This document shows, one piece after another, positions 17,175 through 35,071 of a DNA stretch of 64,000 nt. The notes beneath the pieces were generated by a model. That model saw nothing but the letters and a program-made list of their open reading frames with translations, was not told the DNA's origin and did not search any database. The translations under genes and the position numbers were made by a program. Location of the stretch: NCBI RefSeq assembly GCF_013155125.1, contig NZ_CP053564.1, positions 5,959,501-6,023,500 of the forward strand, written 5' to 3'. The stretch is from Pseudonocardia broussonetiae (lineage in GTDB: Bacteria > Actinomycetota > Actinomycetes > Mycobacteriales > Pseudonocardiaceae). Position 1 is the stretch's first letter; every line of letters begins with the position of its first letter.

Positions 17175-17342
17175 CTAGGAGCGCGCTGAAAAGCTCGGGC
17201 CTACTGCGCGACGCCCAGGCGGCGCCCTCGCGGCGTTGCGCGGATACGTCGATACAACAGCGGTATCGCCGCATCCGCCCGCCTTGCGAGGACACCACCT
17301 GGACGCCGCTCGCTACGGCCGGAGCTTTTCAGCACCCTCCTA
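17175..17342. repeat. 168-bp near-palindromic repeat, copy 2 (inverted), cut by IS630
   Basis: This is the inverted counterpart of 3131-3298, nearly identical over its full length when reverse-complemented. It starts CTAGGAGCGCGCTGAAAAGC eight bases after the depolymerase stop. It ends CAGCACCCTCCTA, where the IS630 element has inserted at the terminal TA. Without the IS it would end in CTCCTAGG, placing its TAG exactly on the stop codon of the convergent methyltransferase gene (18510-18512). Confidence 0.85.
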
Positions 17343-18432
17343 GTGTCCTGAGTCAGAGATTCGCTGGCAGTAGTGGGCGAGGCTGTCGAGGATCTCGTCG
17401 GCGGTCTTGTGCCAGATGAATGGTTTCGGGTTCTCGTTCCACATCGTGGTCCAGGTGCGGATCGCGGCGACGAGTTCCTTGGTAGAACGGTGCGTGCCCC
17501 GGCGCAGCCAGCGGTGGGTGAGCTCGGCGAACCAGCGCTCGACGAGGTTGAGCCAGCTGCTGTAGGTCGGGGTGAAGTGCAGGACGAACCGGGGGTGTCG
17601 GGCCAGCCAGCGCTTGATCATCGGGGTCTTGTGGGTGGAGCTGTTGTCCACGATCACGTGCACCGCCAGGTCGGCGGGTACCGAGCGGTCGATCAGGGCC
17701 AGGAAGCGGCGGAACTCCTCGGCCCGGTGCCGCACGGTCAAACGAGGTCAGCACGTTGCCCGAGGCGACGTCGAGGGCGGCGTAGAGGTTCGTGGTGCCG
17801 TGCCGGATGTAGTCGTGGGTGGCCCGAGCCGGCGTCCCGGGCAGCATCGGCAGCACCGGCGCGGTCCGGTCCAGCGCCTGGATCTGGGTCTTCTCGTCCA
17901 CGCACAGCACCACCGCCGCGTCGGGCGGGTTCAGATACAACCCGACGACGTCGCGGACTTTGTCGATGAACTGCGGGTCCGGGGACAGCTTGAACGACTC
18001 GACCTGATGGGGTTTGAGACCGAACGCCCGCCAGATCCGCGACACCGCGGACTGGCTCATCCCGGTCGCCGCGGCCATCGACCTCGTCGACCAGTGCGTC
18101 GCATCGCGCGGGGTCTGCTCGAGGGTGGCCACGATGACCCGCTCGACATCGGCGTCGGTGATCGTGCGAGGCGCTCCCGGTCGGGGTTCGTCCCACAGCC
18201 CGTCGATCCCGTCGGCGACGAACCGGGCCCGCCATTTCCCGACCGTCACCTTGTGACAGCCCAGCTTTTCCGCGATCTCGGTGTTCGACAACCCGTCCGC
18301 CGCGGCCAGCACGATCTTGCACCGCAGCGCCAGAGCCTGCGCCGAACTCGGCCGCCGCGCCCACCGCTCCAACACCTCACGGTCCTCGACGCCGAGCACC
18401 ACCACCGCCACCGGCCGACCCCGTACCGCCAC
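17340..18432 (-). pseudogene. IS630 transposase, frameshifted
   Basis: The N-terminal part carries a helix-turn-helix region (ALALRCKIVLAAADGLSNTE, then LGCHKVTVGKWR) and the first catalytic aspartate in VVLCVDEKTQIQ. The frame breaks at 17740-17742 (AAA on the plus strand where AA is expected). The rest continues in another frame with HVIVDNSSTHKTP (second Asp) and YSSWLNLVERWFAELT (Glu), completing the DDE triad. It is either a mutated copy or one expressed by +1 frameshifting. The downstream frame runs through the inverted repeat and stops at a TAG formed by the TA target and the next flanking base. Confidence 0.85.
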
Positions 18433-20344: not shown

Positions 20345-21186
20345 CCCCGGTCGTCGTCGTCGGCGACCTGGGCGTCGACGTGCTCGTGACGCCGTCGACG
20401 CCACCCGTCCCCGGGGCCGACGTCCCCGCCCGCATCCGGACGACGGCGGGCGGGGCGGGCGCGAACACCGCCGCCTGGCTCGCCCACCTCGGCGCGCCGG
20501 TGACGCTCGTGGCCCGCGTCGGCGACGACGGGCCCGGACGGGCGGCGGTGGCCGAGCTGGGGGCGTCCGGGGTGCGGGTGGCCGCGGCGGTGGACCCGGA
20601 CGCGCCGACGTGCACGGTCGTCGTCCTGCTCGACGGCGACCGCACGATGCTGTCCGACCGCGGTGCCGCCGCCCGCCTCTCCCCCGACGACCTGCCGCCG
20701 CTCACCGGACGCGGGCACCTGCACCTGTCCGGGTACGTGCTGCTCGACCCGCCGTCGCGCCCCGCGGGCCTGGCCGCGCTGGCCGCCGCGCGCGCCGCCG
20801 GGTGGACGACCTCGGTCGACCCCCAGGCCGCGCCGGCGCTGACGCCGGAGTTCCTGCGGTGGGTGCGCGGGGTCGACCTGCTGCTGCCCAACGCCGACGA
20901 GCTCGCCGCGCTGGGCGGGTCGGCGCGGGCGCTGCTCGACGTGGTCGGCGCCGTGGCCGTCACCGACGGGGGGCGCGGGGCGCGCTGGGTCGACCGTTCC
21001 GGGACCTGGTCGGTCGTGCCGCGGGCCGTCACCCCGGTCGACCCGACGGGCGCCGGCGACGCGTTCGACGCCGGGCTGCTGGCCGCCCGGCTGGCGGGCG
21101 CGGGCCCGGAGGAGGCGCTGGCGGCCGGTTGCGCCGCCGGCGCTGCCGCCGTGCGGCACCCGGGCGCCCGGCCCCTCACACCCTGA
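20341..21186 (+). CDS. psuK: PfkB-family kinase, probable pseudouridine kinase
   Basis: A 281-residue ribokinase-fold protein. AGGAGANTAAWLAHLG is the first PfkB motif and DPTGAGDAFDAGLL the second, containing the catalytic aspartate. It would phosphorylate pseudouridine for PsuG. The substrate is inferred from gene order. GTG start at 20341 overlaps the psuG stop. It converges on the minus-strand operon that ends at 21176, overlapping it by 11 bases. Confidence 0.85.
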   Translation: MTPVVVVGDLGVDVLVTPSTPPVPGADVPARIRTTAGGAGANTAAWLAHLGAPVTLVARVGDDGPGRAAVAELGASGVRVAAAVDPDAPTCTVVVLLDGDRTMLSDRGAAARLSPDDLPPLTGRGHLHLSGYVLLDPPSRPAGLAALAAARAAGWTTSVDPQAAPALTPEFLRWVRGVDLLLPNADELAALGGSARALLDVVGAVAVTDGGRGARWVDRSGTWSVVPRAVTPVDPTGAGDAFDAGLLAARLAGAGPEEALAAGCAAGAAAVRHPGARPLTP

Positions 21187-21502
21187 GGTGGCCCAGGTCG
21201 ACGAGGACCACCGCGCTCAGGTTGGGGGTGCGCGAGCAGGTCGGCTGCACCTGCGGACCACCGGAGTAGTGGCGGCGCAGCTCCTCGGAGAACCCGACGG
21301 CACCGACCTGCGCCCCGCGGTCCCCCAGCAGGTCCAGCGCCACCTGCAGCTCCGAGCGCGTCACCTCGGCCCGCCAGAGCCGCTGGGTGACGACCAGCGC
21401 GTCGCCGTCGACCTCCACCCGCAGCGTCGAGCTCCCGACGAGCGGGCGCACGGTCCGGCCACCGCGGTAGCGGTCCAGCACCGAGGCCCAGTCGAGACTC
21501 AT
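21176..21502 (-). CDS. small DW-RY family protein C
   Basis: A 108-residue protein of unknown function and the most divergent of three paralogues here. It shares the opening MSLDWASVLDRYRGG, the central TLRV segment, RLWR, and an ending in DLGHLRV, compared with DLGYLE/D in the other two. I see no catalytic motif, signal peptide or membrane segment. It is the last gene of the fmd/tubulin-like operon, overlapping its neighbour's stop by four bases, and its 3' end overlaps psuK. Confidence 0.65.
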   Translation of the reverse strand: MSLDWASVLDRYRGGRTVRPLVGSSTLRVEVDGDALVVTQRLWRAEVTRSELQVALDLLGDRGAQVGAVGFSEELRRHYSGGPQVQPTCSRTPNLSAVVLVDLGHLRV

Positions 21503-21798
21503 TCCAGGTAGCCCAGGTCCTTGAGCACGTGCGCCGCCGACGTCGCCCGCACGTCGGCCACCAGCGCCCGGTACTCCTCGACGAAGAGCCCGGCGTGCCG
21601 GCTCATCCGGTCGGACTCGATCAGCCCGGCGGCCTTCTCCAGGTGCTCGCGCGCGAGCACGTCGCGCCACAGCGAGTTGCGGATGTGCACGCCGGTGTCG
21701 TCGACCCCGGTGATCTCCAGCGTCTTGCCGCCCGCGACCGTCGGGATCCTCACCCCGCCGTCGTAGCGGTCCATGACCCGTGTCCAGTCCAGTGGCAC
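21499..21798 (-). CDS. small DW-RY family protein B
   Basis: A 99-residue protein, clear paralogue of 24095-24394. Shared features are DW-x2-V-x2-RY near the N-terminus, G-x-TL-x(2)TG around residue 30, SLWRD/RLWKD, AREHLEKA/TRAHLEKA, and the terminal LKDLGYL. The distribution suggests a small alpha/beta adaptor, but that is a guess. GTG start at 21798 lies two bases after the stop of the previous gene. The second copy of this family lies between the two tubulin-like genes, so partnership with those proteins is likely. Confidence 0.7.
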   Translation of the reverse strand: MPLDWTRVMDRYDGGVRIPTVAGGKTLEITGVDDTGVHIRNSLWRDVLAREHLEKAAGLIESDRMSRHAGLFVEEYRALVADVRATSAAHVLKDLGYLE

Positions 21799-21800
21799 CG

Positions 21801-22310
21801 TCAGCCCCTCTCCACCCGCACCGGCGCCGTGCCGGGTCGGACCAGCTCCTCCACGTGCGCGAGCATCGCCTCGTGGCGGCCCTCGGCCAGTGCCACGTCG
21901 CACGACAGCACCGCCGCGAGCTCCTCGACGTCACCTCCGCGCAGGCAGGTCACCACGAAGGGCTCGCGGTGCTCCTGGGGCAGGTCCGCGATCCGGTCGC
22001 GCAGCTCGGGCCAGCCGCACACGACGGCCAGCCCACCGGCGTCGGCCGTGGCGATCAGCCCCTCGGCCAGCTTCGCGATCCGGCCGGAGAACGGCAGCCC
22101 GAAGTACCGGAACACCGCGGGTCGGGCCACCATCCCCGCGACCACCTGCACGCTCACCTGCTCGGCCAGCGTCGGATCGGCGAGGCGGTGGGTGCAGGTG
22201 AACCGCACGGCCTCGAAGAGCGCACCGACCCGGCCGAGCCACTCGTCGAACTCCTGCGCGCAGTCCGCCCCGGTCACGGCGTCGGGGGCCCTGTCTCCCA
22301 TGGCGGGCAT
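21801..22310 (-). CDS. unknown protein in the fmd/tubulin-like operon
   Basis: A 169-residue, mostly helical, soluble protein that I do not recognise. A segment HRLADPTLAEQVSVQVVAG faintly resembles the region-2 helices of small sigma factors or their relatives, but no promoter-binding second domain is evident. GLPFSGRIAKLAEG and ADLPQEHREPFVV follow. Start ATG at 22310 has AGGAG seven bases upstream. It lies between the first tubulin-like protein and two small paralogues, with 69 bases before it and 2 after it. Confidence 0.6.
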   Translation of the reverse strand: MPAMGDRAPDAVTGADCAQEFDEWLGRVGALFEAVRFTCTHRLADPTLAEQVSVQVVAGMVARPAVFRYFGLPFSGRIAKLAEGLIATADAGGLAVVCGWPELRDRIADLPQEHREPFVVTCLRGGDVEELAAVLSCDVALAEGRHEAMLAHVEELVRPGTAPVRVERG

Positions 22311-22379: not shown

Positions 22380-24035
22380 TCAGGGGGTCGGGACGACCGT
22401 CTTGACCATCATCGCGATGTGCTCGGCCTGCACGATGGTGACGTCCTTCGAGATCGGGGCGTCGCCGCGGATGGCCTCGTGCGGGATGACGACCCAGCAC
22501 GCGCAGCCCCAGATGCACTCGCCCGCCATGCCGTCGAACCGGATCGACTGCTCGGACAGGAGCACGCCGAGGTCGAGGAGCCAGGAGTGCATCATCAGCT
22601 TCTCGTCCCACGACTCGATCGCGTCGTAGGCGTCGCGGGCCGCGTAGAAGGCCGTGAAGTCGGTCTTCGCCACACCCGGGATGATGATGTTCGAGTACGC
22701 GGTCAGCTCGTCGAAGAACTCGCCGACCGAGGTGTTGACCGTGCCGTCGTCACCGTCGAGGACGAAGCCCTGCAGCGTCTCCTTGAGCTTGGTCTCCAGC
22801 GTCTCGTTCCACAGCTCGCGCGGAGCCACGGTGTGCGCCTCGATGTAGTCGGTCTTGAAACCCTCCTTGAGGCCCGACCACTGCGGGATGTAGCCGATCC
22901 ACTTGCTGACGACCGCGCGCCACTTGCTGCGCGGCTCGCCGGGCAGCACCTCCACGCCCGGGTGGGTGTACTTCGCGACGTCGAAGACCGTCCACGTGCG
23001 GTCGCCGGAGATGTTGCGCTCGTGCGGGGCCCCGGTGAAGCCCATCGGGCGCAGCATCTTGAACAGCAGGCGGCCGTAGTCCTGCACGACGAAGCGCATG
23101 AAGGAGTCGTTCACGAACTTCCGCGTGACGCCCTTGCGGAGCGCGTCGCGGATCGCCGGCCTGCCGGTCTTCGTGTACGAGCCCAGGCGCTGCCAGGAGT
23201 GCTCCTGCGGCAGCGCGAAGAAGCCGCCGGTGAACGGGTTCTTGTAGAGGTCGCCCCACACCGCCATGACGCCCTGGTTCTTGGCGTCGTCGAGCATGCA
23301 GTCGATCTCGTTCATCGTCGGGTACAGCGCGGCGTCGCCGCCGACGTGCGCCTCGTCGCCGGAGAACGGCATGGCCGCCACGCCGACCACCGGGATGCGG
23401 CGGCCGAGCTTGACGTTGGACAGGTGCCGCGCCAGGTCGACGACCATGCCCGATCCGGTGCCGCCGGACAGGGAGAAGAACACGAGCACGAGCGACGGGA
23501 GCTTGGTCTGGTTGATGCTCGCGACGAAGTCGTCGAGCTCCTTCTCCAGCGACTTGTCCTCGCCGTAGTAGTAGTGCCCGTAGATGGCCTTGGCGATGGC
23601 GCGGGGGATGGAGTCCCCGGCCTTCGGCATCTCGGTGTCGCTGGGCAACCACGGCTCGTAGTTCGGGTTCCAGTAGTACCGGGGGTACTCCATCTTGAGG
23701 TACTCGCGCCAGCGGTTGAGGCTGGTCATGAGGTCCTTCTTCTCCGGCACGTCCAGCGACACGGTGCGGACCTGGGCCCGCTCGGTCGGGATGCCGCGCT
23801 CCGCGAGGCGCTGGTCGAAGCCGCTCACGTACTCCTTGAGCTCGTGCTGGTCCTGGTCGCCGATGTCGATCGAGAGGCCGGTGAACCGGGCGCGCGGGTC
23901 CTCCAGCATGTCCTCGATCTCGCCGGTGCGCAGCAGCGCCTCCACCATGTAGGCACCCATCTTGCCGATGCCGATCGCGTGGATGCAGTGCGGCGACTGC
24001 GCGCCGGTCGCACTGTGGTACATGGACAGTCCCAT
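22380..24035 (-). CDS. tubulin/FtsZ-like protein with intact nucleotide loop
   Basis: A 551-residue protein of the bacterial tubulin-like group. AIGIGKMGAYM (20-30) fits the N-terminal glycine loop (T1), and FFSLSGGTGSGMVVD (187-200) contains the tubulin signature GGTGSG at 191-196. Between them is EYPRYYWNPNYEPWLP (116-131), shared word for word with the paralogue at 24394-25881. MAVWGDLYKNPFTGGFF follows the core. The C-terminus carries GECIWGCACWVV with a C-x3-C-x-C pattern (507-513). Predicted role: GTP-binding, possibly polymerising partner of the second protein. No membrane segment. AGGAGG precedes the start. Function in amide metabolism is unknown. Confidence 0.72.
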   Translation of the reverse strand: MGLSMYHSATGAQSPHCIHAIGIGKMGAYMVEALLRTGEIEDMLEDPRARFTGLSIDIGDQDQHELKEYVSGFDQRLAERGIPTERAQVRTVSLDVPEKKDLMTSLNRWREYLKMEYPRYYWNPNYEPWLPSDTEMPKAGDSIPRAIAKAIYGHYYYGEDKSLEKELDDFVASINQTKLPSLVLVFFSLSGGTGSGMVVDLARHLSNVKLGRRIPVVGVAAMPFSGDEAHVGGDAALYPTMNEIDCMLDDAKNQGVMAVWGDLYKNPFTGGFFALPQEHSWQRLGSYTKTGRPAIRDALRKGVTRKFVNDSFMRFVVQDYGRLLFKMLRPMGFTGAPHERNISGDRTWTVFDVAKYTHPGVEVLPGEPRSKWRAVVSKWIGYIPQWSGLKEGFKTDYIEAHTVAPRELWNETLETKLKETLQGFVLDGDDGTVNTSVGEFFDELTAYSNIIIPGVAKTDFTAFYAARDAYDAIESWDEKLMMHSWLLDLGVLLSEQSIRFDGMAGECIWGCACWVVIPHEAIRGDAPISKDVTIVQAEHIAMMVKTVVPTP

Positions 24036-24094
24036 TGCGGATCCTCCTGTTTCGGGCGTGCGTCAGCGCGGTACGTCCTGGTGGGTGCGGACGG

Positions 24095-24394
24095 TCAGTC
24101 GAGGTAGCCGAGGTCCTTGAGGATGGTGGCGGCCGTCGTCGGCCGTTCGTCGGCGATGTAGGTGCGGTAGTGGTCGATGACGTCGCCGTAGTTGCGGGTC
24201 ATCTTCCCCTCGTCGAGCAGCGTCATCGCCTTCTCGAGGTGGGCGCGGGTGATTCGGTCCTTCCAGAGCCGGTGCGAGACGTAGACGTAGCCCTCGTCGG
24301 CGCCGGTGACCTTGAGCGTGCGGGCCCCCGGCATCGACGGGAGCTCGGCACCGTCCCGGTAGCGCGTGACGACGTCGGCCCAGTCGGTGGCCAT
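24095..24394 (-). CDS. small DW-RY family protein A
   Basis: A 99-residue soluble protein, paralogue of B (21499-21798) and more distantly C (21176-21502). It opens MATDWADVVTRYRDG, has TLKVTG, RLWKDRITRAHLEKA and ends LKDLGYLD. Its ATG overlaps the stop of the second tubulin-like gene by one base (TGATG), and the first tubulin-like gene follows 59 bases on. No enzymatic motif. A cognate binding partner or regulator of the tubulin-like proteins is the simplest reading, by position only. Confidence 0.7.
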   Translation of the reverse strand: MATDWADVVTRYRDGAELPSMPGARTLKVTGADEGYVYVSHRLWKDRITRAHLEKAMTLLDEGKMTRNYGDVIDHYRTYIADERPTTAATILKDLGYLD

Positions 24395-25881
24395 CAGCCG
24401 GACGCCGCCACACCGGCGCCGGAGGTGGCGATGGCCGCGACCTCCGCGTCGGTGATCGGGGAGGCGACGGACTCCCCGCGGATCGCGGCGTGCGGGACGA
24501 CGACCCAGCAGGCGCAGCCCCAGATGCACTCGCCGCCCATGCCGTCGAACCGGATGGACGGCTCGCAGAGCATCACGCCGAGGTCGAGGATCCACGAGTG
24601 CAGGAGCAGCTTGTCGTCCCACTCCAGCGGGTCGTAGAGGTCGCGGGACGGGACGAACGCCTCCAGGTCGAGCTTGGTGGCGCGCGGCAGGACGACGCTG
24701 ACGAAGTCGGCCCCCGCCGCGGTCTTGACGACGGGATCCACACGGGTGGTGGCGACCTCGCCGATCGCGCCCGCCACGGCCTCCGCCGCAGCCGCGGCCG
24801 CCTCGCCGGAGCCGAACACGCGGGCTTCGGCGTACTCCGTCGAGAAGCCCTTGACCAGGCCCAGGTCACCGAGCGTGCCGGCGTCGTCCAGCGTCGAGAC
24901 GGCCAGGATGTTGAGCCACTTGTCGCTCTGCTCGCCCCGGATGGCGGGGTGCCACTGGTCGCCGGGGACGGCGAGCCAGTTGAGCGCCTTGAGCGACTCG
25001 TAGAGGTCCTTGCCACCGCCGGCGGACAGGAACTTCGCGACGCCGGGGACGACGTCCGCACCGGGTGCCTCGGGAACGGCGAAGAAGCCGCCGGTGAACG
25101 GGTTCTTGTAGAGGTCGCCCCACACCGCCATGACGCCCTGGTTCTTCGGAGTGTCGATCATGCAGTCGAGTTCGTTGATCACCGGGAAGAACTCGGCGGA
25201 CGGCGTGGTCGGGGTGATGCCGACGCCGACCACCCACGGGCGGCGCCCCAGCTTGATGGACGACAGGTGGCGGGCGATGTCGACGACCAGCCCGCTGCCG
25301 ATGCTGTCGCCGAGCGAGAACGGGATCACCACGACGGGCGTCTTGTCGCTGGCGAGGACGCCCGCGGCGAACGCCTCCATCGCCGTCGTGATCTCCTGGT
25401 TCTGGTAGTACTCGCAGTTGTAGATCGCCTTGGCGACCGCCCGCGGCACGAGCTCCCCCGGGCCGGGCAGCGCCAGGTCACCGGGCAGCCACGGCTCGTA
25501 GTTCGGGTTCCAGTAGTAGCGCGGGTACTCCATCTTGAGGAACTCGCGGTACCGGTTGAGCGACGCCGACAAACCGGCCCGGCTCGGGATGGGCAGGTCC
25601 ACCGTGACGATGCCCGGCGTCTCCCCCGCCGCGGCGCGGACGGCCGCGAGCGGCCCGTCCCCGATGTTGACCGCCAGCGCGGTGAAGCCCTCGGGGGCGT
25701 CCTTGAGCATCTCCGCGACGACGGCCGCACCGGGTGCGCCCAGGCCGAGGACGTGCAGGGAGAACGGGCCCTCGTGGTCCCCGGCGTGGTGGACGTTCTC
25801 CTTGCTCAGCGCCTCGATGCGAGCCAGCGTCGTGTCGTGGGGATCGTCGTGTCCGTGTCCGTGTCCGTGGTCGTCCGACAT
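24394..25881 (-). CDS. tubulin/FtsZ-like paralogue with degenerate nucleotide loop
   Basis: A 495-residue paralogue of 22380-24035. It begins with a histidine-rich stretch (MSDDHGHGHGHDDPHD), then GLGAPGA at the T1 position (46-52). The signature loop reads FSLGDSIGSG (188-197), where the other protein has FSLSGGTGSG, so the GGT of the tubulin motif is replaced by DSI. EYPRYYWNPNYEPWLP, NQGVMAVWGDLYKNPFTGGFF and the C-terminal GECIWGCACWVV are retained. This looks like a pseudo-nucleotide-binding partner in a heterodimer. Start at 25881 is set by GAGGAG upstream and the paralogue alignment; the frame is open beyond it. Confidence 0.7.
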   Translation of the reverse strand: MSDDHGHGHGHDDPHDTTLARIEALSKENVHHAGDHEGPFSLHVLGLGAPGAAVVAEMLKDAPEGFTALAVNIGDGPLAAVRAAAGETPGIVTVDLPIPSRAGLSASLNRYREFLKMEYPRYYWNPNYEPWLPGDLALPGPGELVPRAVAKAIYNCEYYQNQEITTAMEAFAAGVLASDKTPVVVIPFSLGDSIGSGLVVDIARHLSSIKLGRRPWVVGVGITPTTPSAEFFPVINELDCMIDTPKNQGVMAVWGDLYKNPFTGGFFAVPEAPGADVVPGVAKFLSAGGGKDLYESLKALNWLAVPGDQWHPAIRGEQSDKWLNILAVSTLDDAGTLGDLGLVKGFSTEYAEARVFGSGEAAAAAAEAVAGAIGEVATTRVDPVVKTAAGADFVSVVLPRATKLDLEAFVPSRDLYDPLEWDDKLLLHSWILDLGVMLCEPSIRFDGMGGECIWGCACWVVVPHAAIRGESVASPITDAEVAAIATSGAGVAASG

Positions 25882-25928: not shown

Positions 25929-26714
25929 TCAGGAGGCGCGGGTCATGGCCCGCGTCCGCAGCGTGCTTTCCAGCAGTGACCGCCCGGCCCGGGCCCGGCG
26001 CAGAGCGCTGACCGACAGCTCGGCGTACTGGAACTCGTACTCCTCGTCGCCGCACTCGCCGAGGGTGACGCCGTCGAAGCCCACGATCGCGGAGTGGCCC
26101 GACCAGCGACGCCCACCCGCGTGGCCGGCCGCGTTCGGGGCCACGACGTAGCAGGTGCCCATCCACGCCGCCGCCCGCGCGGCCAGCACCTGTGCGTAGG
26201 CGGGCACGTCGGGCTCGGCCTGGTAGCGGACCAGCAGTTCCGCGCCGCGGAACTGGCAGCCCTCGCCGACGGCGCTGTCGTCGCGGCAGATGCTCAGGCC
26301 GGTCCGCAGCCCGCCCGGCCCGCTGACGACGTCGGGCGGATCGCCGCCGCGGCGGCCGGCGGCCCGGCTGTGCCGCAGCACCACCTCGCCCCGGTCGTCG
26401 ATGAGCACCACGGTGTGGTCGGGATCGGGTCGGCTGCGGCCGCCGCTGACCGAGAACACGCCCCAGACCGCGGCGGCGCGACAGGCCCTCGCGAAGACCG
26501 CGACGTCCTCGCCGGGCATCGTCAGTGCGTCCCGACCGGGGGGGCCGAACCCGTGCGTGCCGTGCTCGGGGAAGACGATCAGGTCGAGGCCGGGCTCACC
26601 GTGTTTCATGCCGACGACGAGGTCGGCGATCTGCAGGTAGTTGCGCCGCACGTCCGCGCGGGTGCGCGGCGCCGGAACGGTGTGGCTGAGCACCGCGACC
26701 CCGACCCGGTTCAC
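25929..26714 (-). CDS. nitrilase-superfamily aliphatic-amidase homologue, catalytic Lys missing
   Basis: A 261-residue protein related to AmiE/AmiF (about 340 residues), lacking their C-terminal arm. The catalytic glutamate is present in FPEHGTHGF and the cysteine in [33 protein letters not shown] aligns with the amidase core. The expected catalytic-lysine motif (YRK-x2-P) reads LRHSRAAG, and the following EG-x-YP loop is absent. It may be inactive, altered in specificity, or a binding subunit. It overlaps the formamidase gene stop by four bases. Confidence 0.75.
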
Positions 26715-27958
26715 GTCGAGACCGCACAGGCCCCGCGGTCGGCCATGATCGGACCGGACGCCGACGGGGTGATGTCGAAGTCGAAGATCGCGGTGGGCAG
26801 GTAGAGCGAGCAGCAGGCGTTCGGGATGTCGACGACGCCGCTGACCCGGCCCTCGATCGGGGCCGATCCGAGCAGCAGGTACGCCTGCGGGCCGGAGTAC
26901 CCGAACTTCTTGAGGTACTCGATCGCGTTGAGGCAGGCGTTGCGGTAGGCGACCGTGGCGTCGTTGTAGTGGTTGGTGTTGGTCTCGTGGTCGACCGAGA
27001 TGCCGATGAACGTCACGAACTCGCTGTAGCGCGGCTCGACGTTGCCGGGCATCAGGATCGGGTTGGTGGTGACGCCGTAGGTCTCCATTCCGCCCTTGAT
27101 CAGGTCGACGTGGAAGTCGATGAACCCGCCCATCTCGATGGCCCCGCAGAAGGTGATCTCGCCGTCGCCCTGGGAGAAGTGCAGGTCACCGCCGGAGAAC
27201 AGGGCGCCGCGGTGGTGCACCGGGTAGAAGACCCGCGAGCCGCGCGTGAAGTTCTTGATGTCGTGGTTGCCGCCGTTCTCGCGCGGGGGGACGGTGCGGG
27301 CCCCGTCGCGGGCGATCCCGGAGAGCATCTCGCCGGTGGCGGTACCGCCCAGGACGGCCGCCTCCAGGGGCGGCAGTGCGAGCGGGGGCACGCGGTCCGG
27401 GTCGGTGGCGATCAGGGCGCGCTCCCGCTCGTTCCACCTCGCGAGCAGCTGCGGCGACGGCGCGGTGCCGAACAGCCCCGGATGCGTGATCCCGGTGTAG
27501 CTGACGCCGGGGATGTGCCGCGAGGTCGCCTTCTGCCCGCTGAAGTCCCAGATGGCCTTGTACGCGTCGGGGTACTGGTCGGTGAGGAAGCCGCCGCCGT
27601 TGGCCTTGGAGAAGATGCCGGTGTAGCCCCAGCCCTGCCCGGGTGCGTCACCGATCTCCTGCGGGACCGGTCCGAGGTCGAGGATGTCGACGACGAGCAG
27701 GTCTCCCGGCTCCGCGCCCTCGATCGCGATGGGGCCCGACAGCATGTGGCAGCCGTCGAGGTACACGTCGCGGACGTCGTCGGCGGAGTCGTTGTTGCCG
27801 ATCTGGGCGTCCGTCCACTCGCGGCACTCGATGCGGATCGACGAACCCGGCTTCACCGTGGCGGCGGGCGGGATGTCGGGGTGCCAGCGGTTGTGACCGG
27901 GGACGACCTGGTCACGCATCGACTTGGCCTGGTCCACGCTGAAGACGACGTCGGGCAC
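26711..27958 (-). CDS. fmdA: acetamidase/formamidase
   Basis: A 415-residue FmdA-type amidohydrolase that releases ammonia from formamide or acetamide in the cytoplasm. The start [26 protein letters not shown] and [14 protein letters not shown] are family hallmarks, and [20 protein letters not shown] belongs to the conserved core. GTG start at 27958 follows a perfect AGGAGG. Length matches the family. It is the second gene of the operon after fmdB and overlaps the nitrilase homologue. Confidence 0.93.
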
Positions 27959-28013: not shown

Positions 28014-28298
28014 CTACGGGCGAGGCAGGCGCAGCTGCCGGGGGTCGGTCGCGCGGCGCTGGGTGCGACCGGGCCGGCCCGGCAGCGACGTGACGACCCG
28101 GGGAGCGTCGGCACTGCGGTACTGGGCGTCGAGCGCGCCGCGCAGACCGGCGGGCAGCGCGCGCAGCGCCGGAGCCCCGAACACCCGGCGGGACGGTTCG
28201 GTGCAGGTCGGGCAGGTGGCGTCCGCAGCGGACTCGCGCATCGGACGGATCACGTCGAAGGGCCCGCACCGCACGCAGGTGTGCTGGTAGGTCGGCAT
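28014..28298 (-). CDS. fmdB: FmdB-type zinc-ribbon regulator
   Basis: A 94-residue FmdB-like protein. MPTYQHTCVRCGPFDVI with a second CPTC pair forms the zinc ribbon, and the C-terminal ~40 residues are basic and probably disordered. In the original amide-utilisation locus fmdB is a putative regulator of fmdA, and here it is the first gene of the operon. The ATG is preceded by GAGAGGGG and a good sigma-A-type promoter. Confidence 0.88.
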   Translation of the reverse strand: MPTYQHTCVRCGPFDVIRPMRESAADATCPTCTEPSRRVFGAPALRALPAGLRGALDAQYRSADAPRVVTSLPGRPGRTQRRATDPRQLRLPRP

Positions 28299-28744: not shown

Positions 28745-29317
28745 TCAGGGGCGGCGACGACCGGGCCGCAGCCAGTCGGCGGTGCGCCGGTGCCGGCCGA
28801 GCCCGGCGACGACGAACTCGTCGCTGCGGCCGGCGGCCACGACCCCGAGTTCGCGCAGCGCCACGGAGACGGGAGCGGTGGACGACACGAACTCCTCCTG
28901 GCGCCCCAGCAGCAGAGGGCCGGTCACGAGGCTCCCCGCACGCCACACCGCGGCCGTCTGGTGCCCGACCAGGCCCAGGTAGTCGGCCTCGACGTAGGCG
29001 AGCGAGCCCCGCGTCGACGCGGCCTCCAGCAGTGCGACCAGGCCGGGCGTCAGGACGGAGAACCCCGACTCCGGGCCGGTCAACCAGGTCTCCCTGCGCT
29101 GCGCCGCCTGGGGCGTGCCGCCCGGCATGGCGTCCATCCCGAGCGCGCACAGGGCGGCCGGCGTGACCTGCGCGGCCAGCTCCGCCGTGACCGGCAGCAG
29201 CACGAGGTCCGCCGCGTCGAGCGGCACGGCCTCGATCCCGAGCACCGCGGCGGCGCCGGAGAGCGCGTCGGCGCCGCCGATCACGCCGGCCAGCTCGTAG
29301 CGCAGGCCGGTCACCAC
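28745..29317 (-). CDS. unknown soluble protein
   Basis: A 190-residue protein without signal, membrane segment or motif I can name. It is rich in Ala, Leu and Val and reads as an alpha/beta fold (VTGLRYELAGVIGGADAL, then a Pro/Thr-containing TPGLVALLEAA region). The frame is open upstream into the MarR gene, but GAGG six bases before the GTG at 29317 sets the start. It is divergent from the MarR gene and precedes the small ORF and DUF3040 gene, so MarR control is plausible. Confidence 0.6.
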   Translation of the reverse strand: MVTGLRYELAGVIGGADALSGAAAVLGIEAVPLDAADLVLLPVTAELAAQVTPAALCALGMDAMPGGTPQAAQRRETWLTGPESGFSVLTPGLVALLEAASTRGSLAYVEADYLGLVGHQTAAVWRAGSLVTGPLLLGRQEEFVSSTAPVSVALRELGVVAAGRSDEFVVAGLGRHRRTADWLRPGRRRP

Positions 29318-29451
29318 ACCGCACCTCGGTTCCGTCGCACAGATACAGTCTATCGGAATAGTGTCGAACGGAAATACCTCGGAGGTGTCCTTTGCTTTAC
29401 GATGACCGTGCTCCTGGCCTCCGGGCCGGGAGCGCGACGGCAGGAGGCGAC
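29318..29451. promoter_or_regulatory. divergent promoter region between the unknown gene and marR-type gene
   Basis: AT-rich for this genome. On the minus strand TTCGAC-17-TATCTG could be a promoter for the 190-residue gene. The segment ATTTCCGTTCGACACTATTC (minus strand, 29372-29353) contains two TTCCG half sites. It resembles the CTACTTCCGG spacer before fmdB and the CTTCCGTTCGGAAG palindrome at 31514-31527. A MarR operator here is a reasonable guess. Confidence 0.4.
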
Positions 29452-29886
29452 GTGACGGCGACGGGGCAGGACTCGGGACGACGTGCCCCGCTGGATCGAC
29501 TGCTCGGCCGGGCCGAATACCTCGTGGCACGCCGCATCGAGGCCGTCGTGGCCACCGACGGGCTGACCATCGACCAGTGGCGGGTGCTCGACCTGCTCTC
29601 CGACGGCGGGGGCCACACAATGTCCGGCATCGCAGCGGCCGTCGGAGTGCCGAGCCCGACGCTCACCAAGCTCGTCGACCGGCTCGTCGACACGGCCCGG
29701 GTCTACCGCCTCGCGGACGCGCGCGACCGCAGGCGCGTCCTGGTGTTCCTGTCCGACGAGGGTCACGCCGTGCACACGCGCCTGTCCCCCGCGGTGCGGG
29801 ACGTCGAGGCCGACGTGCTCGGCGGGGTCGGTGGCGACGCACCGGCGCTGCTCGACCTGCTCGACCAGCTCGTCTCGGGCGGCTGA
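29452..29886 (+). CDS. MarR-family transcriptional regulator
   Basis: A 144-residue winged-helix regulator. The recognition region is MSGIAAAVGVPSPTLTKLVD and the wing is the basic DARDRRRVLVFLSDEG. GTG start at 29452 has GGAGG five bases upstream, and an earlier in-frame start at 29392 is less likely. It lies between the unknown gene/fmd operon and the AmiC-like sensor, so amide-locus regulation is inferred from position. Confidence 0.85.
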   Translation: MTATGQDSGRRAPLDRLLGRAEYLVARRIEAVVATDGLTIDQWRVLDLLSDGGGHTMSGIAAAVGVPSPTLTKLVDRLVDTARVYRLADARDRRRVLVFLSDEGHAVHTRLSPAVRDVEADVLGGVGGDAPALLDLLDQLVSGG

Positions 29887-29913: not shown

Positions 29914-30978
29914 TCAGGCGCCGCCGCTGAGCTCGGCGAGCACGTCGAACTCCAGGCCGTCGGCCCTCGCCAGGTAGATGCGCTGCATCAGGTGCCTGTC
30001 GTGCATCCGCACGGCGCCCCGTGGACCCTCGTAGGTGACCGACTCCGCGGTCGCGCTGATCGGCGCCACATCGGTGCTCCGCGCCGCCGCCGCGAGGTGC
30101 GACAGCAGGGTCATCCCCTCGAAGCACGACTCGCCCGGCGAGGTGATCGCCGGGGCGGTGGACCCCAGCCGATCGAGGTAGCGGCGCTCGAAGTCGAGGC
30201 CGTGCGGGGTGCCGAGCGCCTCGAAGAACCCCGCGGCGGAGTACAGCTCATGGGTGTTGGCGGCCCCGGTGGCCAGGAGCATGTTCTCGTCCATCAGCGG
30301 GCTCAGCCGGACGCAGTGGTCGTGCAGGCGCATCTCGGTGAACGCCCGGTTGAACTGCACGGCGTCGGAACCCAGGAGGAACATCAGCACGCCCTGCGCG
30401 CGCGAACGCTCCACGCGGCGCAGCGTCGGGCCGAACTCCTCGGTACCCAGGCCCACGTAGATCTCGTCACGGATCTCCGCGCCCACCGACGCGGCGAACG
30501 TCCGAGCCACCCGGGCCGACGCCCGCGGCCAGACGTAGTCGTTGCCGACGATGCACCAGCTCCGGACGCCCAGCTCGCCCGCCATCCAGCGGAGTGCGGG
30601 CAGCAGTTGTCCGGCCGGGGTCTCGCCCGTCAGGAACACTCCCGGCGTCCGCTCCCCGCCCTCGTAGAGCGCGGTGTAGACGTAGGCCACCCGCCCCTCC
30701 AGGCGTGGCGCGACGGCCTGCCGGACGGCGGAGGTGTGCCACCCCGCGACGGCGCCGACAGCCCCGCTCGCCACCAGCGACCCGACCTCGGCGGCCACCT
30801 CCTGCGGCGACCGCCCGCCGTCGACCGAGCGCAGCCGGACCTCACGACCGAGGATGCCACCGTCCTCGTTGATCTCCGAGACGGCCAGCCGCCCGCTCGC
30901 CCAGCAGGACGGGCCGTAGATTCCGGACGGCCCGCTGCTCGGGACGACGAAGGCGACGTCGAGCGTCTCGGCGACCAT
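29914..30978 (-). CDS. AmiC-like amide/urea-binding sensor protein
   Basis: A 354-residue type-I periplasmic-binding-protein fold of the AmiC/urea-short-chain-amide group: VVPSSGPSGIYGPSCWASG at the start, GAVGAVAGWHTSAVRQA and SWCIVGNDYVWPRASA in the core. There is no signal peptide or lipobox. I start at MVAETLDVAF (30978), which has GGGAGGTCCCC before it. It is therefore probably cytoplasmic like Pseudomonas AmiC, which senses amides and holds the antiterminator AmiR. No AmiR/ANTAR gene is visible here, so its output partner may be the MarR protein or a gene elsewhere. Confidence 0.82.
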   Translation of the reverse strand: MVAETLDVAFVVPSSGPSGIYGPSCWASGRLAVSEINEDGGILGREVRLRSVDGGRSPQEVAAEVGSLVASGAVGAVAGWHTSAVRQAVAPRLEGRVAYVYTALYEGGERTPGVFLTGETPAGQLLPALRWMAGELGVRSWCIVGNDYVWPRASARVARTFAASVGAEIRDEIYVGLGTEEFGPTLRRVERSRAQGVLMFLLGSDAVQFNRAFTEMRLHDHCVRLSPLMDENMLLATGAANTHELYSAAGFFEALGTPHGLDFERRYLDRLGSTAPAITSPGESCFEGMTLLSHLAAAARSTDVAPISATAESVTYEGPRGAVRMHDRHLMQRIYLARADGLEFDVLAELSGGA

Positions 30979-31028
30979 GGGGACCTCCCCGGCTGCTCCC
31001 GGGGCCGGAAGCTGCACCAGTCTGGGAG

Positions 31029-31107: not shown

Positions 31108-31509
31108 ATGTCACGCCGCCGCAACTCCCCCTCGCTCCCGGCCGGGTGCACCGTCACCGTCTGCCGCGGATGCTGCTGCGGCACCGAGCGCAAGCACCCG
31201 GGCGTCGACCACGCGGGCCAGGTCGCGGCACTCCGGGACGGCGTCGGCGGGGCCGGGCGCGTGCGCGTCACCGACTGCCTCGACGCCTGCGAGCGGTCCA
31301 ACGTCGTGGTCGTCGGCCCCTCCCCGGCGGGCCGGGCCGCAGGGGCCAGGCCGGTCTGGCTGGCCAACGTGCTGCACCCGGAGACGGTGGACGAGGTCGT
31401 CGCCTGGGTGCAGGCGGGCGGGCCCGGCGTCGACGACCCGCCCGGCCTGCTCGACCTGTGCGTGTTCACGCCGTCGCGCCGCGCGCGGGCCGAGGCCGGC
31501 GAGATCTAG
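31108..31509 (+). CDS. (2Fe-2S) ferredoxin-like protein
   Basis: A 133-residue protein with the thioredoxin-like [2Fe-2S] ferredoxin pattern: TVCRGCCCGTERKHP near residue 20 and DCLDACERSNVVVV about 35 residues later supply the four cluster cysteines. WLANVLHPETVDEVVAWV matches the C-terminal helix of the fold. Small electron carrier, partner unknown. Start ATG at 31108. Confidence 0.82.
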   Translation: MSRRRNSPSLPAGCTVTVCRGCCCGTERKHPGVDHAGQVAALRDGVGGAGRVRVTDCLDACERSNVVVVGPSPAGRAAGARPVWLANVLHPETVDEVVAWVQAGGPGVDDPPGLLDLCVFTPSRRARAEAGEI

Positions 31510-32453: not shown

Positions 32454-33320
32454 TCACCCCTGCGGGGCGCCCGTCGACCCTGCCCCTGCAGAGGTGGTCT
32501 GCACCACGGCGGCGAGGAGTTCGTGCAGCTCGGCGGCCGTGCGCGGGCGTGCGCCGGACCCCGCGGCGGCGAGCAGGCGGTGCACCGCGGGCGCCCACGC
32601 CGGGCCGAGGCGGGCGGCGCGCAGCAGGGCGGCGTCGCCGAGGACCTCCGACGTCTCCCCGGTGACGACCCGGCCGTCGACGACGACCGCGACCTCGTCG
32701 GCGAAGCGGTGCGCGAGGTCGACGTCGTGGGTCGACAGGACGGGCGTGGTGCCGGTGGCGTGCAGCCCGGCGAGGGTCTCGAGCAGCTCCTCGACGCCGG
32801 CCGGGTCGAGACCCGCGGTGGGCTCGTCGAGCACCAGCAGCCGGGGCGCCATCGCGACCGCCCCCGCGATGGCCACCCGCTTCTTCTGCCCGAACGACAG
32901 CATGTGTGTGGGCCGGTCGGCGAGGCCGGTGATGCCCAGCGCGAGCAGGGCGGCGTCGACGCGGGCGCGCACCTCGTCGGCGGGCAGGCCCATGTTGACC
33001 GGCCCGAACGACACGTCCTGCCCGACGCTGGCGGAGAACAGCTGGTCGTCGGGGTCCTGCAGGACCAGCTGCACCTGCGTGCGCAGCGCGGTGAGCCCGC
33101 GGCGGGTGCGCCGCACGGGTTCGCCGTCGAGCAGCACCTCCCCCGCACCGGGCGCGAGCGCGCCGGCGAGCAGGCGGAACAGCGTCGTCTTGCCGCCGCC
33201 GTTGGGTCCGAGCACGGCGACCCGGCGGCCGGCGTGCAGCGCGAGGTCGGCGCCGTCGAGGACCGGCCGGCCCGCCTCGTAGGCGAAGCAGAGGCCCCGG
33301 GCCTCCAGGACGGGCGTCAC
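32454..33320 (-). CDS. cbiO: cobalt/nickel ECF transporter ATPase
   Basis: A 288-residue CbiO-type ATPase with Walker A GPNGGGKTT, LQDPDDQLF (the Q-loop typical of ECF ATPases), signature LSFGQKKRVAIAG and Walker B LLVLDEPTAGLD. The C-terminal ~60 residues beyond the ATPase core are Ala-rich and unassigned. GTG start overlaps the cbiQ stop (GTGA). It drives metal uptake with CbiM, N and Q. Confidence 0.9.
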   Translation of the reverse strand: MTPVLEARGLCFAYEAGRPVLDGADLALHAGRRVAVLGPNGGGKTTLFRLLAGALAPGAGEVLLDGEPVRRTRRGLTALRTQVQLVLQDPDDQLFSASVGQDVSFGPVNMGLPADEVRARVDAALLALGITGLADRPTHMLSFGQKKRVAIAGAVAMAPRLLVLDEPTAGLDPAGVEELLETLAGLHATGTTPVLSTHDVDLAHRFADEVAVVVDGRVVTGETSEVLGDAALLRAARLGPAWAPAVHRLLAAAGSGARPRTAAELHELLAAVVQTTSAGAGSTGAPQG

Positions 33321-34051
33321 GCCAGCACCAGCGTCACGGTGACGACGGCCCCGACCAGCACCGCCGAGGCGACGACGAACGGCACCGACAGCGGCCGCTC
33401 GTCGACCTGCACCCGCAGCGACCCGGTGTAGCCGCGCAGCGCGAGCCCCTGCTCGAGGCGCCGGGCCCGGTCGAACGCCCCGACGAAGACCGCAGCGGCC
33501 TGCCCCGCGACGCAGCGGTAGGTGGTGCGCCAGGTCCGGAAGCCCAGCCGCCCGGCCTGCGCCTCGCGGACGGTGCCGGCCGTCTCCAGCAGGAGGAACA
33601 GCAGCCGGTAGACCAGCGCCGCCACCTCGGTGACGGCGGCGGGCACGCCGAGGCGCTCCAGCCGCGGCAGCGCGTCGGCCAGCGGGGTGCTGGCCGCGAA
33701 CAGGACGAGGCAGAGCAGCGCGGCGGTGGCGCGCCCGGCCAGTGCGACGGCGGGGCCGAGGCCCTCCGGGGCCCAGCGCACCAGCGGGTCGCCGCCGACG
33801 GCGACGAGCAGCGGCACCGACCCGACGACGACGAACACGAGCGGTGCCCGCACCGCGCGCAGCACCTGCCCGGGCCGCAGGCGCAGCGGGCCGAGCAGCA
33901 GCGCGAGCGCCACCGCCCCGACGACGAGCGCGCCCGGCCACGGCGGCAGCGCGACCGCCGCGCCGACCAGCCCGAGGGCCAGCAGCGCCTTCTCCCCCGG
34001 GTGCCGCCGCCGCCAGGGCGTCGTCTGCGCGAGGGTGTCCAGCCCGTGCAT
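33317..34051 (-). CDS. cbiQ: cobalt/nickel ECF transporter T component
   Basis: A 244-residue membrane protein with five to six helices. The coupling-helix motifs LAGRATAALLCLVLFAASTP and VFVGAFDRARRLEQGLALRG (Ala-Arg-Gly type) are those of CbiQ/EcfT. It links the ATPase to CbiM. Start ATG overlaps the cbiN stop by one base. Confidence 0.9.
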   Translation of the reverse strand: MHGLDTLAQTTPWRRRHPGEKALLALGLVGAAVALPPWPGALVVGAVALALLLGPLRLRPGQVLRAVRAPLVFVVVGSVPLLVAVGGDPLVRWAPEGLGPAVALAGRATAALLCLVLFAASTPLADALPRLERLGVPAAVTEVAALVYRLLFLLLETAGTVREAQAGRLGFRTWRTTYRCVAGQAAAVFVGAFDRARRLEQGLALRGYTGSLRVQVDERPLSVPFVVASAVLVGAVVTVTLVLA

Positions 34052-34377
34052 CAGGCCCGGTCGTCGGGCTGTGCGTCCGCGACGGCGGCCGGGCGGGCCA
34101 GCCGGCGCCGGGTGTTCAGGGTGCCGAACAGGTAGCCCAGGAAGCCCGCGCCGACGGCCGCCTGCAGCGCGAACAGCGTCGACGCCGTCTCCGCCTCCGG
34201 CTGGAAGACCGGCGTGAACCAGGGCTCGTAGCCGGGGTGGTCGGCCTCGATCTGCTCGACGGCCAGCCCGTCGGCGCCGCCGAACTCGGTGTCGCTGCCG
34301 ATGAACACCAGCGGGACGGCGGCGATCACCACCACGGCGAGCACGAGCAGCCAGTTGACCAGTGCGGAGCGCGACAC
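34051..34377 (-). CDS. cbiN: cobalt transporter accessory subunit
   Basis: A 108-residue protein with one N-terminal and one central membrane segment and an extracytoplasmic loop containing DTEFGGADGLAVEQIEADHP and YEPWF, typical of CbiN. It helps load metal into CbiM. GTG start one base after the cbiM stop. Confidence 0.85.
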   Translation of the reverse strand: MSRSALVNWLLVLAVVVIAAVPLVFIGSDTEFGGADGLAVEQIEADHPGYEPWFTPVFQPEAETASTLFALQAAVGAGFLGYLFGTLNTRRRLARPAAVADAQPDDRA

Positions 34378-34378
34378 G

Positions 34379-35071
34379 TCAGGCCTCCTGCGGGGCGGGG
34401 GTCGTGGCGGGGCGGCGCAGGACGCCGAGGCGGAGCAGCTCCGCGGGGCTGACCTTCACCAGCAGCCGCACGATCAGCACCGTCAGCAGCCCCTCGCAGA
34501 CCGCGAGCGGGATCTGGGTGATCGAGAAGATCGCGCCGAACTTGACGATCGAGCCGAGCACGCCGGAGGCCGCGTCGGGGTAGGCCAGCGCGAGCTGCAC
34601 CGAGGTGGTCGAGTAGGTGGCGAGGTCGGCCAGCGAGGCCGCGAGGAACACCCCGACCGACAGGCCGCCCCCGAGCTTCCCGACCAGCACGAACACCCCG
34701 TAGGCGACCCACGGCCCGACGATCGCCATCGAGAACGCGTTCGCGCCCAGCGTCGTGATGCCTCCGTGGGCGATCAGCAGGGCCTGGAACAGCAGCACGA
34801 TCGTGCCGAGCAGCGCCATCACCGGGGGCCGGAACAGGATCGCCCCCAGGCCGGTGCCGGTGGGGTGCGAGCTCGACCCGGTGACCGACGGGATCTTCAG
34901 CGCCGACAGCACGAACGCGAACGCGCCGGCCGCGCCGAGGAGCAGCTTCGTGTCGGGGTCCTCGCGGACCTGGCGCACGACGGCCCGGGCGCCGTGGACG
35001 ACGAACGGCGCCGCCGCCACCGTCCAGGCGGCCGCGTGCAGCGGGGGGAGGTACCCCTCGGCGATGTGCAT
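34379..35071 (-). CDS. cbiM: cobalt/nickel ECF transporter S component
   Basis: A 230-residue polytopic protein beginning [10 protein letters not shown]; the N-terminal histidine is the metal ligand in this family. [16 protein letters not shown] is the second conserved metal-site region. It is the substrate-binding subunit. Cobalt versus nickel cannot be decided by eye, but the CbiN subunit suggests cobalt. It lies 107 bases after a divergent-looking but same-strand ArsR gene. No cobalamin riboswitch is seen. Confidence 0.9.

Follow-up and report, generated by a model that had tools for sequence, protein, structure and literature searches.

The window analysed here, 64,000 nucleotides of the Pseudonocardia broussonetiae genome (genome size 7.29 Mb; closest named matches Pseudonocardia), contains on its minus strand a pair of tubulin-like genes, whose products P0002 (495 residues) and P0001 (551 residues) are the subject of this report. 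Between them lies an open reading frame (ORF) for a 99-residue protein, which overlaps the end of the 495-residue gene by one base and whose stop lies 59 bases ahead of the 551-residue gene. After the genes of a related system introduced below, the three products are termed AnhA-type (A), AnhE-type and AnhB-type (B), respectively. An earlier note on this DNA, made from the sequence alone, had described the two large ORFs, and both are open as it described. Its further observations also stand: the segments EYPRYYWNPNYEPWLP and MAVWGDLYKNPFTGGFF are identical and complete in both proteins, which are paralogous (205 of 542 columns identical, 38%, E 3e-115), and P0001 bears the tubulin signature GGTGSG, with GDSIGSG at the same place in P0002. 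The fmdB, fmdA and amidase homologues that it had read as part of one strand-wise run are identified as such by Pfam and NCBIfam, and lie upstream of the pair on the same strand. Beyond that note are the 99-residue gene, two further copies of it, and genes for a cbiMNQO-type cobalt transporter.

The profile check against the Tubulin_2 and FtsZ families that had been proposed gave a divided answer. P0001 scores barely above the cut-off of Tubulin_2 (PF13809; 27.6 bits against 27) and below that of Tubulin (PF00091; 26.2 against 33), whereas P0002 has no Pfam match at E<=1. Among related proteins, PF00091 is matched at E<=0.01 by 42 of 43 B proteins and 19 of 50 A proteins, and PF13809 at the same threshold by 38 and 32, respectively. 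AF2 models were obtained for P0002 (pLDDT 88.8, pTM 0.89) and P0001 (pLDDT 86.4, pTM 0.90). Both models were compared by Foldseek/VIA, with FtsZ, CetZ and tubulin among the matches of P0002; the TM-scores of the two are modest, 0.25-0.60 among the matches listed, and the longest tubulin alignments extend to residue 542 of 551 in B and 471 of 495 in A. Searches of the PDB by sequence gave for P0001 a best E of 0.23, to a proteasome subunit, with a CetZ1 entry at 0.47; in profile searches the best match was CetZ1 (4b46) for both the B set (0.056) and the A set (0.0081). Since these sequence-only searches are weak, the evidence for the fold consists of the predicted models and Pfam, from which both P0001 and P0002 are predicted to take the tubulin/FtsZ fold, as the earlier note had supposed; A and B would pair as an alpha/beta heterodimer.

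An exact GGTGSG forms the T4 nucleotide loop in 51 of the 56 B proteins and 24 of the 56 A proteins. The wider pattern GG[TS]G[ST]G is present in the B protein of the window and absent from its A protein. Judged by these loops, GTP binding by the B subunit is plausible, and by the A protein of the window doubtful. A role in cell division was considered and rejected, the genome having a separate gene with FtsZ_C (PF12327); this domain is absent from P0001 and P0002 and has one match in the genome, at C1:6249507-6249791.

Relation to the acetonitrile hydratase of RHA1

Plasmid pRHL2 of Rhodococcus jostii RHA1 carries a homologous trio in the order A, 99-residue protein, B, under the locus tags RHA1_RS41530, RS41535 and RS41540. 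The A proteins are 53% identical (514 residues on pRHL2), the 99-residue proteins 62% and the B proteins 56% (568 residues on pRHL2); the computed masses of the plasmid proteins are 55,757, 11,093 and 63,018 Da. RHA1 B exceeds the PF00091 cut-off (33.5 against 33). Upstream of the plasmid trio lie genes for a binding protein and an aliphatic amidase together with a divergent MarR gene, and downstream a small helix-turn-helix gene and then a NicO transporter. Databases name the three proteins 'tubulin-like doman-containing protein' or 'hypothetical protein', and among these names none was found that ties them to anh genes.

RHA1 is also the source of an acetonitrile hydratase (ANHase), purified from it in 2007 according to papers that cite the work. 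Two papers (PMC3511329, PMC3680314) describe it as a cobalt nitrile hydratase that acts on small aliphatic nitriles and whose genes are arranged alpha-AnhE-beta, with AnhE as the metallochaperone for its cobalt; a third lists Co, Cu and Zn as metals of the R. jostii enzyme (PMC7193024). The window resembles the RHA1 system in the order of its A, 99-residue and B genes, in an upstream amidase-type gene and in nearby Co/Ni transporter genes. It differs in that its B protein retains a CxxxCxC motif which RHA1 B is without, and in having, besides, a formamidase gene, CbiMNQO and a further two genes of the AnhE type. AnhE is reportedly a protein of 11.1 kDa, with cobalt inserted into AnhA (a 2010 abstract on RHA1), and the 11,093 Da of the middle RHA1 protein agrees with this figure; the same abstract reportedly gives no significant identity between ANHase and known nitrile hydratases. 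A search confined to pRHL2 gave no match to NHase_alpha. The trio on pRHL2 is thus very likely, by this combined comparison, anhA-anhE-anhB, and that of the window its homologue. To the earlier note, no connection of tubulin-like polymers with amide metabolism had been known; ANHase probably provides it. The AnhE-type proteins themselves have no clear relative by sequence in the PDB, the window protein reaching a best E of 0.04 and the RHA1 one 0.0079, with an uncharacterised protein as its match.

Recurrence and the cysteine motif

At E<=0.001, homologues make up 1011 of 7995 scored candidates for P0001 and 642 of 7999 for P0002, which is above chance. A scan of species genomes yielded 57 loci with related genes, in Pseudonocardia, Actinomycetospora, Williamsia, Gordonia, Mycobacterium, Rubrobacter, cyanobacteria, Paenibacillus and others, and also in alpha-, beta- and gammaproteobacteria (metagenome-assembled genomes being labelled as in the records). 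The distribution is patchy: the genes occur in 9 of 60 relatives searched, all of one genus, and in 2 of 296 genomes of the phylum, the own genome being included in both figures. With the window piece these loci give 58 stretches and, after exclusion of L075 and L078 (B cut at a contig end) and L080 (no A), 55 usable A/B pairs; some A proteins cut at the start were retained, their C-terminus being present. By a rule of position, 53 of the 55 pairs, that of the window included, have an AnhE-like ORF between their A and B genes; in the two exceptions, L036 and L072, such an ORF is listed at the A/B border.

Close to their C-termini both window proteins contain the sequence E-C-I-W-G-C-A-C-W. In the 55 pairs the underlying pattern CxxxCxC is present in both subunits 37 times, in A only 7 times, in B only 11 times, and never absent from both; the RHA1 pair has it in A, B having lost it. 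A tree of 119 sequences places the A proteins in a single clade (56 of 56, support 1.0). By eye, three losses in different lineages can be read from it: one in A, affecting 11 proteobacterial sequences, and two in B, of which one falls in a clade of Rhodococcus, Gordonia, Williamsia, Mycobacterium and P. sulfidoxydans and the other in Paenibacillus with Alicyclobacillaceae. In 16 of the 19 proteins that lost the motif, all three Cys are gone from the columns aligned with them. In larger sets of proteins with a readable C-terminus, CxxxCxC is present in all 155 A-type members and in 105 of the 110 B-type ones, figures biased by the sets being the best matches of actinobacterial queries, which leaves the proteobacterial A proteins lacking the motif unsampled.

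The neighbourhoods of these loci repeatedly include clusters for CobW, NicO, CbiM, CbtA/CbtB, an amidase (CN_hydrolase) and FmdA, and further for an amide-type binding protein, AmiR, peroxiredoxin, a CbbQ-type ATPase and a VWA protein. By profile, CobW is found in 28 of the 58 loci, a Co/Ni transporter in 26 and either in 41. These are raw counts and lower bounds, 29 of the 58 stretches being shorter than 20 kb and the window piece ending at 34000, short of cbiM; the one background figure is the two copies of CbiM in the own genome, that of the window included. The block thus recurs in other genomes, a point on which the earlier note had made its idea depend, but FmdA itself lies near just 10 of the 58 loci and an amidase near 34.

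These counts bear directly on the scaffold or sensing polymer that the earlier note had envisaged. A GTP-driven filament of the pair that scaffolds or positions amide-degrading enzymes would suit the tubulin fold of the models, the intact GGTGSG of so many B proteins and the presence of an amidase or FmdA near 38 of the 58 loci, yet many A proteins have a degenerate T4 loop, and the trio of RHA1 matches an enzyme of two subunits that is already known. Moreover, neither of these two families, the ones that the amide-hydrolase counts cover, was found in the remaining 20 loci (many of them short stretches), and each of the six such loci of at least 20 kb has the trio together with CobW and a Co/Ni transporter. 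Given this persistence of cobalt genes beside the trio where the stretch showed no amidase, and given the RHA1 enzyme, we regard the filament as very unlikely; the RHA1 trio and the cobalt genes around many relatives point rather to an enzyme that makes amides.

A putative cobalt nitrile hydratase

We therefore think it highly probable that the pair represents the two subunits of an ANHase-type cobalt nitrile hydratase, converting nitriles to amides, and not a cell skeleton. The starting points are the trio, its homology to that of RHA1, the motif and the neighbours, all visible in the sequence, to which the models add a predicted fold. Cobalt would be imported through CbiMNQO (in other lineages through NicO or CbtAB, with CobW for handling) and placed by AnhE in the Cys claw of one subunit or both. 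There the metal would activate water or the nitrile carbon, so that R-CN becomes R-CONH2 in the A/B dimer, and the amide would be split into acid and ammonia by FmdA or an amidase. The least certain step concerns GTP, which the AnhB-type subunit probably still binds and which would serve to assemble the dimer or to load cobalt. On balance we lean narrowly towards the fuller proposal, that a branch of the tubulin superfamily has turned cobalt enzyme as an obligate A/B heterodimer with GTP in B, which hydrates nitriles at a C-terminal CxxxCxC claw of an origin independent of the classical nitrile hydratase claw, a single claw in either subunit being enough.

As to the last reaction, the amidase-like protein of the window is 44% identical to the RHA1 amidase and 84 residues shorter; Arg replaces the Lys of YRKILPW, which we take to be catalytic, and the following six residues are missing. 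From its sequence the protein may be inactive or altered, and since it is short with that Lys replaced, FmdA may be the working amide hydrolase.

Several points weigh against this assignment. C-x-L-C-S-C is said to occur in all known nitrile hydratase alpha subunits, in an extract of PMC7329996 that names the RHA1 ANHase shortly before; it is absent from both large pRHL2 proteins and from the window pair, which has CIWGCAC instead. The same source has ANHase mature by subunit swapping, and according to PMC3511329 AnhE is no swapping chaperone. The pRHL2 genes are equated with the published anh genes on the grounds of organism, gene order, protein mass and neighbours. No transporter or CobW was found in 17 of the 58 loci, the window piece with its end before cbiM among them. 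With 11 losses in A and 8 in B among 56 pairs, about 1.6 pairs lacking both motifs would be expected if losses were independent; given this figure and the few independent losses, the lack of such pairs is suggestive and no proof, and the joint loss of the Cys could also reflect the loss of a structural or redox site. Finally, the own genome has four strong matches to classical NHase_alpha (C1:404263, 926228, 1563556 and 2071204), so that with this locus the organism would own two unrelated types of nitrile hydratase. A weak fifth match lies at 1561123.

Those classical genes enter into two further explanations. In one, the locus encodes a Co/Ni enzyme of the same build that in this lineage catalyses another reaction or acts on another main substrate, such as cyanide; ANHase would then be one member of the family among others. 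The spread of the family over several phyla would allow for this, as would the classical genes and the FmdA of the window and some relatives, which fits formamide formed from cyanide; we nevertheless judge it unlikely, the trio being the same and 53-62% identical to that of RHA1, and hydration of cyanide being nitrile hydration too, so that the difference may be one of substrate alone. In the other, A and B would store or sense cobalt in a GTP-dependent way and so govern the metal supply of the classical enzymes. The plasmid pRHL2 bears the trio without an NHase_alpha match, and the RHA1 ANHase with this gene order is reported, in the papers cited above, as an enzyme; set against the His-rich N-terminus of A, the cobalt transport genes and the four strong matches elsewhere, this leaves a store or sensor extremely improbable.

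If the pair is indeed an ANHase-type hydratase, it shares with classical nitrile hydratase and thiocyanate hydrolase what would be the same reaction and a three-Cys cobalt claw ending in C-x-C. It differs from the classical enzyme (CxxCxC) by one extra residue between the first two Cys, by far longer subunits and by the tubulin-like predicted fold; the claw being one residue longer and the fold different, it would, if real, be convergent with the classical one. Membership of the classical family was rejected, as PF02979 (NHase_alpha) has no match in P0001 or P0002 at E<=1, nor in the RHA1 pair at E<=0.01.

With CetZ, FtsZ, TubZ and BtubAB the pair has in common the predicted fold and the T1-like and T4 glycine loops, and its A and B proteins are paralogues like those of BtubAB. 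It is set apart from these by identities of 7-16% among the structural alignments listed, by the conserved EYPRYYWNPNYEPWLP, the C-terminal Cys hairpin and the metal and amide genes, and by the degenerate T4 loop of many A proteins. The weak profile match also recalls FtsZl1/Tubulin_2 (PF13809), as does the presence of a true FtsZ in the same genome. In most FtsZl1 proteins an extended coiled coil and a largely helical C-terminal domain follow the FtsZ domain, and their neighbours are vWA, kinase, GTPase and OmpA genes (Makarova and Koonin 2010, PMC2875224). The window pair has cobalt and amide neighbours and a tubulin-like C-terminal domain instead, and on this architecture membership of FtsZl1/Tubulin_2 was rejected.

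Both ANHase as an enzyme class and the tubulin label on its homologues in databases are already known. Among open-licence PMC papers we found none in which 'nitrile hydratase' and 'tubulin-like' occur together, and no mention of a tubulin kinship of ANHase in the open-licence literature searched. Tubulin-superfamily proteins are known as polymer-forming GTPases, and a pair of them acting as a cobalt hydratase would mean a fold turned to metal catalysis. ANHase, reported to our knowledge without relatives among known nitrile hydratases, would be placed in a family across several phyla and gain both a fold and a putative site for its metal, and database proteins labelled merely 'tubulin-like' or 'hypothetical' would gain a function.

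Other features of the locus

The genes of the cbiMNQO type (32454-35071) lie on the same strand as the trio, with other genes intervening; because these separate them, one transcript is not claimed. The remaining features are collected in Table 1.

Table 1. Positions of features in the window, and of a third tubulin-like protein in related loci (locus handle first)
Feature	Position	Strand	Evidence or remark
AnhA-type tubulin-like protein, P0002, 495 aa, predicted alpha subunit of ANHase-type nitrile hydratase	24394..25881	-	ORF, AF2, Foldseek/VIA, RHA1 homology
AnhE-type 99-aa protein, predicted cobalt chaperone	24095..24394	-	RHA1 homology, position between A and B
AnhB-type tubulin-like protein, P0001, 551 aa, predicted beta subunit	22380..24035	-	ORF, AF2, Foldseek/VIA, RHA1 homology
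ECIWGCACW (CxxxCxC), AnhB-type residues 506-514, candidate cobalt site	22494..22520	-	
ECIWGCACW (CxxxCxC), AnhA-type residues 451-459, candidate cobalt site	24505..24531	-	
GGTGSG (T4 nucleotide loop), AnhB-type residues 191-196	23448..23465	-	
GDSIGSG, degenerate T4 loop, AnhA-type residues 191-197	25291..25311	-	
His-rich N-terminus MSDDHGHGHGHDDPHD of AnhA-type protein	25834..25881	-	RHA1 homologue begins MPDHGHDHGHNHD
169-aa neighbour, cluster c5, no Pfam family	21801..22310	-	cluster kept in 21/58 loci
Second AnhE-like protein	21499..21798	-	profile match 6.6e-43; start chosen by analyst
Third AnhE-like protein, divergent	21176..21502	-	profile match 1.4e-18; start chosen by analyst
Shortened amidase-like (CN_hydrolase) protein, 261 aa	25929..26714	-	Pfam PF00795
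FmdA formamidase	26711..27958	-	NCBIfam equivalog NF045496 638 bits, cut-off 500
FmdB-type zinc ribbon protein	28014..28298	-	PF09723 39.2 bits, cut-off 34.4
Amide/urea/branched-chain-type substrate-binding protein	29914..31017	-	PF13458 249.9 bits; relative in 36/58 loci
Divergent MarR-family regulator	29392..29886	+	PF12802 / PF01047
CbiM cobalt uptake protein	34379..35071	-	PF01891 180.8 bits
CbiN	34051..34377	-	PF02553 77.8 bits
CbiQ	33317..34051	-	PF02361 121.4 bits
CbiO-type ATPase	32454..33320	-	PF00005 105 bits; start approximate
Third tubulin-like protein	L052:14221-15477		
Third tubulin-like protein	L055:14241-15503		
Third tubulin-like protein	L061:14562-15767		
Third tubulin-like protein	L063:14629-15975		
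Third tubulin-like protein	L065:7048-8400		
Third tubulin-like protein	L074:14188-15543		
Third tubulin-like protein	L079:3347-4672		

Seven of the related loci encode this third tubulin-like protein, of 401-451 residues, B-related and without the Cys hairpin, which occupies two positions in the tree. Genes for a CbbQ-type ATPase and a VWA protein are also present in six of the seven, and this co-occurrence suggests an activase-like partner.

Within the window, the c5 protein bears a very faint likeness to RNA polymerase sigma factors (E 0.049). A protein of another family, cluster c10, not assigned to a known one (28745-29320, minus strand, start approximate), recurs in 12 of the 58 loci, and a small Cys-rich family, c9, with no clear Pfam match, in 14 of these 58. 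By eye, an ORF with a CRGCCCG cluster (31108-31509, plus strand) resembles a small ferredoxin-type protein, and 17340-18432 on the minus strand a transposase gene, apparently split across two reading frames.

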